Source: Microbacterium oryzae (GTDB taxonomy: Bacteria; Actinomycetota; Actinomycetes; Actinomycetales; Microbacteriaceae). From it: a stretch of 64,000 bases of DNA. The position numbers were made by a program, and so were the translations under genes. The stretch is from the NCBI RefSeq assembly GCF_009735645.1, contig NZ_CP032550.1, forward strand, positions 1,426,001-1,490,000, read 5' to 3'. Numbering within the stretch: the stretch's first letter is position 1; every line of letters begins with the position of its first letter. The notes beneath the pieces were generated by a model. That model saw only the letters and a list, made by a program, of their open reading frames with translations, searched no databases and was not told the DNA's origin. Below, one piece after another: positions 54,673-56,085 of this stretch.

Positions 54673-54678
54673 TATCAT
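54673..54678 (+). promoter_or_regulatory. -10 box of the corC operon
   Basis: TATCAT, 10 bases before the ATG of the leader ORF; the transcript would begin near 54685. No good -35 is visible. GAGG (54679-54682) lies six bases before the leader ATG. Confidence 0.45.
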
Positions 54679-54688
54679 GAGGCGCACA

Positions 54689-54760
54689 ATGGACGACCCT
54701 CCGAGTTACAGACGATCGCCCCACTGCCCGCACCCCGAGCCCCTCGGAGGTGAGAAGTGA
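54689..54760 (+). CDS. Putative 23-codon leader peptide of the corC operon
   Basis: A small ORF beginning MDDPPSYRR and rich in Pro (6), acidic, Arg and His residues. GAGG lies six bases upstream. Its TGA (54758-54760) overlaps the corC GTG (54757-54759) as GTGA, so a ribosome finishing the leader ends exactly on the corC start. Codons 4-6 form the anti-Shine-Dalgarno of corC. The N-terminal Asp-Asp-Pro-Pro is of the type known to destabilise ribosomes at low Mg2+ (as in enterobacterial MgtL). Translation is inferred. Confidence 0.55.
   Translation: MDDPPSYRRSPHCPHPEPLGGEK
54698..54750 (+). promoter_or_regulatory. Candidate translational attenuator of corC
   Basis: CCTCCGAG (54698-54705) is perfectly complementary to CTCGGAGG (54743-54750), which contains the corC ribosome binding site GGAGG. 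A competing small hairpin, CCGAG (54735-54739) with CTCGG (54743-54747), covers only part of it. The two folds exclude each other. Confidence 0.55.
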
Positions 54761-56085
54761 TCGATTACGTCTTCCTGGGCGTGGGGCTCATCCTGACCGT
54801 CGGAACCGGATTGTTCGTCGCGAGCGAGTTCTCGCTCGTGAACCTCGACCGCGCCGACCTCGAGGCCCGCCAGGCGCGCGGCGAGTCGCGACTCGCGCTC
54901 ACCATCCGCGCGCTGCGCCACACCTCCACGCATCTCTCGAGCGCGCAGCTCGGCATCACGTTGACGACGCTGCTCACCGGCTACACCCTCGAGCCGGCGT
55001 TCTCGCACCTCCTCGCCCCGGTGCTGCTCAGCACCGGCCTCGCCGAGGCCGCCGTCGCGCCCATCGCGACGGTCGTCGCCATGGCGGTCGCGACGGTCCT
55101 GTCGATGATCCTCGGCGAGCTCGTGCCCAAGAACTTCGCCCTCGCGCTGCCGCTCGGCACAGCGAAGCTCGTCGCGCCGTTCCAGATCGGGTTCACGGCG
55201 GTGTTCCGCCCGATCGTCACCCTCCTCAACGGCAGCGCCAACGCCGTGCTGCGCGCGATGGGCATCGAGCCGAAGGAGGAGCTCTCGGGCGCCCGCTCGG
55301 CCGATGAGCTCTCCAGCCTCGTGCGGCGCTCGGCCCTCGCCGGCGTCCTCGAGGAGGACACCGCGTCGCTCCTCGACCGCAGCCTCACCTTCGCGCGCCT
55401 GAGCGCGGGCGACGTGATGACGCCGCGGCCGCGCGTGCACGCGATCGGCGCGGGCGACTCGGCAGACGACATCATCCAGCTCGCGCGGCAGACCGGGCAC
55501 AGCCGCTTCCCCGTCTACGACGAGTCCATGGACGACATCGTCGGCATCGTGCACCTCAAGGCCGCCGTCAGCGTGCCGCGCGACCGACGACCCGACGTGC
55601 CGGCCGCCGCGCTCTCGAACGAGCCGCTGCGCGTGCCCGAGACGGTGCACCTCGACGCCCTCATCGCGGAGCTCCGCGCGGGCGGGTACCAGATGGCGAT
55701 CGTCGTCGACGAGTACGGCGGAACCGCCGGCGTCGTCACACTCGAGGACCTCGTCGAGGAGATCGTCGGCGAGGTCTCGGACGAGCACGACCGGCGCCTC
55801 GCCGGCGTCGTGCGCCATCGCGACTCCGTGACCTTCCCCGGCCAGCTGCGCCCGGACGAGCTGCGCGACCGCGCCGCCGTCGAGGTGCCCGAGGACGACG
55901 CCTACGACACGATCGGCGGATACATCATGAGCGTGCTCGAGCGCGTGCCCGTGCTCGGCGACACCGTGCGCGTCGACGACGGCACGCTGACGGTCGAGCG
56001 GATGGACGGACGTCGCGTCGACCGCGTCCGCTTCACCCCCGACCCGCTGCCCGAGGGCGCCGACGACGAGGAGGCCCGCTCGTGA
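54757..56085 (+). CDS. HlyC/CorC (CNNM) family transporter, full length
   Basis: A 442-residue membrane protein of the CNNM/CorC family, linked to Mg2+ (and Co2+) efflux or transport. The N-terminal DUF21 domain (~1-190) has four hydrophobic stretches, with VASEFSLVNLDRADLEAR and LSMILGELVPKNFALALP (GELVPK is the family hallmark). A CBS pair (~210-330) follows: GDVMTPRPRVHAI, GHSRFPVYDESMDDIVGIVHLKAAV, VVDEYGGTAGVVTLEDLVEEIVGEV. The C-terminal CorC/HlyC domain is ~345-430. GTG start with GGAGG six bases upstream. Preceded by a leader ORF and coupled to the second CorC gene by GTGA. Confidence 0.9.
   Translation: MIDYVFLGVGLILTVGTGLFVASEFSLVNLDRADLEARQARGESRLALTIRALRHTSTHLSSAQLGITLTTLLTGYTLEPAFSHLLAPVLLSTGLAEAAVAPIATVVAMAVATVLSMILGELVPKNFALALPLGTAKLVAPFQIGFTAVFRPIVTLLNGSANAVLRAMGIEPKEELSGARSADELSSLVRRSALAGVLEEDTASLLDRSLTFARLSAGDVMTPRPRVHAIGAGDSADDIIQLARQTGHSRFPVYDESMDDIVGIVHLKAAVSVPRDRRPDVPAAALSNEPLRVPETVHLDALIAELRAGGYQMAIVVDEYGGTAGVVTLEDLVEEIVGEVSDEHDRRLAGVVRHRDSVTFPGQLRPDELRDRAAVEVPEDDAYDTIGGYIMSVLERVPVLGDTVRVDDGTLTVERMDGRRVDRVRFTPDPLPEGADDEEARS

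Follow-up and report, generated by a model that had tools for sequence, protein, structure and literature searches.

What sets the amount of a Mg2+ exporter in a bacterial cell, and could a short open reading frame (ORF) just in front of its gene act as the gauge? The question is raised by a 64,000-nucleotide (nt) stretch of Microbacterium oryzae DNA (NZ_CP032550.1, positions 1,426,001 to 1,490,000; hereafter the window, numbered from its first letter), in which a corC gene of the CorC/CNNM family (54757..56085) is preceded by an ORF of 23 codons (54689..54760) that reads MDDPPSYRRSPHCPHPEPLGGEK and ends in a stop codon; all features located below lie on the forward strand. The host genome is complete (3.04 Mb). 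The corC product is 98% identical at the protein level to the CorC of Microbacterium oryzae in our named collection of loci, matches CorC and CNNM chains in the PDB, and has the full domain set of a CNNM target, with a CNNM membrane domain (PF01595), a CBS pair (PF00571) and CorC_HlyC (PF03471). An earlier note on this DNA had described a -10 box, the 23-codon ORF, the overlap of its TGA with the corC GTG, and a smaller competing hairpin, and the window contains all of them: the promoter box TATCAT lies at 54673..54678, and the leader TGA (54758-54760) overlaps the corC start at 54757 to form a GTGA junction. The note had read codons 2-5, Asp-Asp-Pro-Pro (DDPP, 54692..54703), as a putative ribosome-destabilising sensor of Mg2+, and an 8-base pairing as the device that closes corC. 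Our analyses confirmed the observation and partly supported the mechanism. The Asp-Asp-Pro-Pro leader ending at a CNNM start proved to be conserved, whereas the 8-base pairing did not survive and its structural role is assigned to other elements.

Conservation of the leader ORF

The search for corC covered 58 relatives as well as 150 genomes of the family and 79 of the class. Upstream DNA was read for part of the matches: 30 of the 35 genus genomes, 128 loci in 121 genomes from other genera of the family, 19 loci at order level, and 29 at class level. The named collection comprised 80 loci, 76 of them titled Microbacterium, and shares organisms with the genus set. As selection by the motif would be circular, upstream ORFs (uORFs) were defined without regard to the peptide, by a TANNNT hexamer 5-12 nt before the start and a stop within -20 to +25 of the corC start. 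Such a uORF was present at 30 of 30 Microbacterium loci and 120 of 128 other family loci. Of 2280 mock starts taken from these loci, 1 had such a uORF, and it lacked DDPP. An ORF beginning M[DE][DE]PP was found at all 30 genus loci, 103 of the 128 family loci, and all 80 loci of the named set, and at least one such leader occurred in 60 of the 75 other genera examined. Both the ORF and its DDPP start, for which the earlier note had suggested a comparison across relatives, are therefore conserved; the leader ORF is genuine, and its conservation before corC/CNNM genes in Microbacteriaceae is strong. Seven genomes had two corC-type loci that were read, with M[DE][DE]PP before both in five and before one in two. 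When 30 loci from a DNA pattern search were fetched, 23 preceded a CNNM gene and 7 did not; across the whole host genome the pattern ATGGAYGAYCCNCCN has a single occurrence. A short ORF in the leader of what its CNNM/CorC domains suggest is a Mg2+ transport-type gene is also the arrangement of leaders that work by intrinsic ribosome destabilization (IRD).

Conservation was concentrated at the beginning of the peptide. Among the 150 ORFs of the blind set, Asp stood at position 2 in 143 and at position 3 in 136 (with Glu in 6 more), and Pro at position 4 in 136 and at position 5 in 135, while the sequence was diverse from residue 7 onward. Twenty of the 150 lacked M[DE][DE]PP. One of these (L112) was a wrong pick and really has MDDPPP; others were variants on the theme (MDDHHH, MDHPP, MDDPH, MEPPS, MGEPPS twice, MDDSS, and VTDDHSHSP), and MDSLPRSS, MDPASRR, MDASSPRR, and MDGHRPAP were not obvious variants. 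Eight family loci had no uORF of the blind set: L168, in which DDPP is fused to corC; L048, with an MDDPP ORF and no -10 match; L152, with a GDPP-like ORF and TTG; L118, L140, L170, and L180, in which corC itself sits shortly after a -10-like box; and L187.

Selection on the first residues and geometry of the junction

In the motif-selected set, all four proline codons were used at codon 5 (CCC 52, CCT 48, CCG 30, CCA 3), and codon 2 was GAC in 99, GAT in 33, and GAA in 1. The uORF ranged from 11 to 63 amino acids while DDPP was kept. Free synonymous codons, together with drift in the rest of the peptide, indicate selection on the first residues and not on the bases; early acidic and proline residues under selection are again what is seen in IRD leaders. 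A conserved reading frame and start would also fit if the leader encoded a small functional protein with CorC as its target. We find this scarcely credible for a product of such variable length, with a diverse sequence from residue 7 and with one copy fused to CorC itself.

The fusion was found in one genome (G098), in which the -10 box and leader start are joined to corC and the frame opens MDDPPSAELLLLIAG, giving 475 codons (MDDPPSAE-CorC). A congener (G169) has one corC locus with a separate ORF, MDDPPSDRPWTA and a stop, and a TGATG overlap. As the fusion keeps DDPP on CorC, it favours the sign in which an abort within DDPP means less CorC. A ribosome-destabilising sequence has likewise been reported in the N-terminus of E. 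coli CorC itself (Chadani 2021, cited in PMC12421838).

The distance from promoter to leader was near-constant: TANNNT ended 9-10 nt 5' of the ATG in all 30 genus leaders, in 92 of 103 from the family, and in 79 of 80 from the named set. This spacing predicts that the mRNA begins 1-4 nt upstream of the leader ATG, in the window as elsewhere, and it makes transcription from a point downstream of 54705 unlikely. At the other end, the uORF stop was TGA in 127 of 132, and in most cases it fell on the corC start or no more than a few bases away, the corC start codon having been chosen by rule. Overlapping or adjoining stop and start codons, here GTGA, are the arrangement of a termination-reinitiation pair. 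Positions 54757-54762 read GTGATC in the window, GTGATG in the M. oryzae locus of the collection (L209), and GTGATG, CTGATG, or similar in other relatives, so that the window has lost the alternative corC start of the TGATG overlap and GTG remains.

Codon usage in the leaders differed from that of the gene: NNT codons accounted for 25% in the leaders and 4.9% in corC. In 27 of 102 family leaders (e.g., L037, L057, and L114), vs 4.0 in shuffles, there was a CATAGACCC-type motif (His-Arg/Ser), which was in frame for 26 of its 27 occurrences.

RNA structure around the corC start

The pairing of the earlier note joins CCTCCGAG (54698-54705) to CTCGGAGG (54743-54750, containing GGAGG), the former being proposed to act against the Shine-Dalgarno (SD) sequence. 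In the window the two are exact reverse complements, but the pairing was found in only 3 of 93 Microbacterium leaders (those of the window genome and of its two nearest relatives, M. oryzae and M. barkeri), no leader among 89 tested from the rest of the family had it, and its predicted probability of pairing with the SD was 0.000 in 30 genus sequences. Codons 3-8 could form a helix of at least seven Watson-Crick pairs with the SD region in 4 of 93 leaders, compared with approximately 3.4 when partners were swapped between species. Because CCTCC accompanies Pro-Pro codons and GGAGG accompanies the SD, the 8-base pairing lies within chance, and we rejected it as an anti-SD helix.

The SD of Microbacterium is predicted instead to be occluded by a local hairpin and a long-range helix into corC codons. 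The consensus fold of 66 Microbacterium leaders comprised three elements. P1 joins GCCCCAC in leader codons 10-12 (54718..54724) to GTGGGGC within corC (54781..54787); P2 (54731..54752) pairs 54731-54739 with 54743-54752 and would occlude the corC SD (54746-54750); and P3 (54753..54772) is a hairpin that contains the corC start codon. At three pairs of P2, both partners were changed in 10, 7, and 17 of the 66 sequences, and the covariation score (0.199 vs 0.149) was reached in 0 of 500 shuffles. The structure also exceeded all 500 shuffles in cells paired and in cells with double change, and 498 of 500 in pairs with double change; sliding it by 1-3 columns lowered the paired cells from 97.3% to 47-56%. 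In the 3' arm of P1, the codons GTG and GGG were each kept in 75 of 76 genes, and none of the 45 conserved degenerate positions had a lower codon entropy; at other sites in these corC genes, GGG made up 261 of 2020 Gly codons. Both P1 arms were intact in 75 of 93 leaders; in one (L254) neither arm was in place and a GCCCCAG run occurred earlier in the leader. The unpaired probability of the SD was lower in the genus than in shuffles (0.137 vs 0.261, n = 30, p = 1.6e-7).

A covariance model of the Microbacterium structure gave 96 matches at E<=1 on 100 other family loci (best 9.5e-14), sequence and structure signal not being separated in these matches, and a common P1/P2 was not seen by eye in the folds of 14 family leaders; we therefore claim the structure for Microbacterium alone. 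No known RNA family was recognised for the leader: the RNA-family scan gave weak microRNA-type matches below cut-offs on a palindromic repeat upstream, one weak small RNA match, and nothing else.

Proposed mechanism

The anatomy of the junction suggests termination-reinitiation coupling as the most likely mechanism. With an mRNA predicted to begin a few bases upstream of the leader ATG, ribosomes would load directly on the leader, and those reaching its TGA would re-initiate at the overlapping corC start. In Microbacterium this start would otherwise be shut by P2, P3, and P1 until a ribosome reaching the stop opened them. With Met-Asp-Asp-Pro-Pro at the N-terminus, elongating ribosomes may be apt to drop off. 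At low Mg2+, more of them would abort and fewer would reach the stop, and the presumed exporter would stay low together with a second CNNM gene (56082..57143; PF01595, PF00571) that is coupled to corC by its own GTGA overlap; with ample Mg2+, the leader would be completed and the exporter made. The transcription start, drop-off at DDPP, and export by this CorC are each predicted here, and Mg2+ is suggested as the signal by the precedents of MgtL, MgtQ, and CorC. Taken together, coupling, DDPP drop-off, and a Mg2+ signal that gate the synthesis of a CNNM/CorC Mg2+ exporter form a reading that we regard as evenly balanced between right and wrong.

The precedents supply the behaviour of the ribosome and the sign of the gate. 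Ribosome drop-off at low Mg2+ has been reported at the EPDP of MgtL (PMC11282234), and Asp2 and Glu5 of MgtQ are reported to cause translation abort (PMC8092293). Salmonella corC and mgpA are described as induced by high Mg2+ and as acting most probably in Mg2+ efflux (PMC12421838), so that a gate closing at low Mg2+ would have the right sign for an exporter. The polarity of the earlier note, in which an abort turns the exporter off, is thus retained as the favoured one on the overlap geometry and the one DDPP-CorC fusion. The opposite polarity, in which ribosomes that abort or stall at DDPP leave the corC start accessible and low Mg2+ turns on a CNNM importer or stress gene, would follow both published acidic leaders of Mg2+ genes, where abort means ON (PMC8092293, PMC11282234), and the transport direction of CNNM proteins has been debated (PMC8726484, PMC5830416). 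Nevertheless, in a fold model a ribosome over codons 3-5 left the corC start as closed as it is without a ribosome (0.326/0.327 vs 0.324), which weighs against a stall being the ON state; the fusion would carry the other sign, as would the high-Mg2+ induction of Salmonella corC (PMC12421838), and we consider this polarity very unlikely. A classical attenuator with a two-state fold switch was dropped as well, since no clear opening appeared at the ribosome positions tried, and it is for this reason that termination-reinitiation is preferred.

Granting a coupled leader, the signal might be other than Mg2+: a pause or drop-off at DDPP could respond to polyamines, to another metal, to the charging of prolyl-tRNA, or to a factor such as elongation factor P (EF-P) or an ABC-F protein like EttA. 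Asp-Pro-Pro is an EF-P-dependent motif. The NNT excess and the CATAGACCC-type motif of the leaders are unexplained by Mg2+ alone. EttA is reported to relieve acidic N-terminal pauses, that of MgtL included (PMC11282234). On the other hand, the recurrent target in the pattern search was a CNNM gene, for which the level of a cation would be the natural signal, and two prolines alone would not require two nearly fixed acidic residues. We think another signal possible and distinctly less probable than Mg2+.

Several observations weigh against the Mg2+ gate proposed here. As for the peptide, no M[DE][DE]PP leader was found in 15 of the 75 other genera examined, the fusion is one case, and IRD is known from E. 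coli and yeast systems and not from these bacteria, for which a literature search found no expression, ribosome-profiling, or Mg2+ data, such data not having been sought otherwise. As for the structure, the fold of the window itself was modest (z = -1.78, with 10 of 200 shuffles equally good), and further pair types, one of the five covariation measures, were unremarkable (78/500). P1 is nearly invariant, so that no covariation could be obtained for it, and in 17 of the 93 leaders the end of its leader arm was changed while the corC arm was kept, L242 being the most altered. A cruder helix-length test on the 93 Microbacterium leaders was weak (p = 0.04), and statistics of the longest local helix are confounded by C-rich sequence and SD placement. 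Outside Microbacterium, the SD was not occluded above shuffles (0.216 vs 0.229, p = 0.17, n = 103), and coupling there must therefore rest on the overlap alone. Placing the model ribosome 60% or 75% of the way along the leader barely opened the corC start (0.323 and 0.360). Finally, MDDPP preceded none of 20 paralogous CNNM genes of Microbacterium, and the overlapping leaders without DDPP in these paralogues and in another genus indicate that leader control does not require DDPP across CNNM genes as a whole.

These leaders without DDPP would also suit a constitutive coupling, in which the leader merely delivers ribosomes from a near-leaderless start and DDPP keeps expression low, with no sensing. 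The overlap and the near-leaderless start are the most general features of the system, and the four family loci whose corC lies shortly after a -10-like box with no leader (L118, L140, L170, and L180) point the same way. Against it, the DDPP residues are kept over 60 genera with synonymous freedom, even in the CorC fusion, and any weak start could give constant low expression. Constitutive coupling is, in our assessment, improbable, though more plausible than a reversed polarity.

Leaders before other CNNM genes

Among the 19 order loci outside the family, MDDPPSHMPWPL leaders were found in two, both of one genus; the rest had MDDHPSS, MDDSRDT, or a different ORF, or lacked one. No further DDPP start turned up in the 29 class loci, of which three came from genomes already in the order set; leaders at the class loci include MHHDPPS, MSTPPDDPPS, and MGEPPS. 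In another actinomycete genus (L325-L348), an overlapping leader of the MDG[SPT]S[CG]ST type was present at all 24 of the 24 CNNM loci read, where it follows a conserved GAGGAGTGA-like stretch.

The 20 paralogue loci of Microbacterium comprised 10 with a leader bearing a D/E-rich ..SP..AR..PG motif, 6 of a DQEGRSSSP type, and 4 with neither. In the first kind (L350-L353, L357, L359-L362, and L369; in the window's own genome, C1:2477896), the motif resembles DSxGHSPxARVTPG and the leader usually ends near the downstream start; some of these ten loci also have a GCCCGGG..CCCGGGC hairpin. The second kind (L363-L368) belongs to a separate CNNM subfamily, with a VSxHRTSxDQEGRSSSPL-type leader and a TGATG/CGATG junction.

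From these sequences, actinomycete CNNM genes seem more generally to favour overlapping leaders, of which DDPP would be the Microbacteriaceae version. A broader proposal is that actinomycete CNNM genes are widely under start-overlapping leaders of at least four types (MDDPP; MDGSS..STCAAP; DS.GHSPSARVTPG; and DQEGRSSSPL), each recurring in its CNNM subfamily or lineage, and that the MDDPP type is a switch for Mg2+ sufficiency in which drop-off is the OFF signal, a mirror of MgtL. We advance this tentatively, judging it a little more apt to fail than to hold.

Relation to known systems

MgtL, before mgtA of E. coli and Salmonella, is likewise a short ORF before a Mg2+ transport gene with an acidic/proline start (EPDP) (PMC11282234), and this start is the sole sequence relation. 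Drop-off in MgtL turns an importer ON by preventing Rho-dependent termination, whereas control in the present case is predicted to be translational, to turn an exporter OFF, and to act on a near-leaderless mRNA. MgtQ, before Salmonella mgtB, is reported as a translation-aborting short ORF (Asp2, Glu5) beside a stem-loop that occludes the ribosome-binding site, that is, translational control (PMC8092293). It differs in being an 8-codon ORF between mgtC and mgtB whose abort is needed for mgtB translation, so that the predicted sign of the corC leader is opposite.

Closer in target are the enterobacterial CorC-type genes. YoaL is reported to overlap the upstream part of a CorC-type gene, mgpA (yoaE; corC itself being ybeX), and to be needed for its full translation; the same source gives the IRD in the CorC N-terminus and the induction of corC and mgpA by high Mg2+ (PMC12421838). 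There, the link of YoaL to Mg2+ is only a hypothesis, and MgpA has a TerC-type membrane domain. The M-box (ykoK) riboswitch also occupies the leader of a Mg2+-related gene, and the translational M-box of Mycobacterium tuberculosis is reported to have a conserved uORF (PMC12810186), but no covariance match to the M-box (RF00380) was found at the corC leader or elsewhere in the genome; the M-box was present in 4 of 60 family genomes. Nor did the leader show the conserved C-terminal RAPP-like motif of RAPP-type arrest peptides, as that motif is defined in PMC10951233 and PMC12992588, leader C-termini varying by inspection.

Among the matches listed in open-licence PMC papers, no MDDPP-type CNNM leader was named in titles or abstract starts, and the Salmonella study describes the mechanisms governing corC and mgpA expression as remaining unclear (PMC12421838). 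The leader is a concrete and widely conserved candidate for the control of bacterial Mg2+ export, a little-understood matter. If the proposal is true, the fragility of the ribosome would let it sense Mg2+ for import (MgtL, ON at low Mg2+) as well as for export (OFF at low Mg2+), and a peptide-encoded Mg2+ gauge would here be working as an OFF switch. The finding also supplies a rule for locating small ORFs before CNNM genes.

Other features of the locus

Downstream, corC is followed by the overlapping second CNNM gene and then by a convergent IMPDH-type gene. Between the upstream gene and the promoter lies a near-perfect palindrome of approximately 80 nt (54488-54573; CAGACGATGTCGTCTCA...TGAGACGACATCGTCTG). 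It has 44 matches over both strands of the genome, corresponding to roughly 23 sites, and is a dispersed repeat resembling repetitive extragenic palindromes or miniature inverted-repeat transposable elements (REP/MITE-like).

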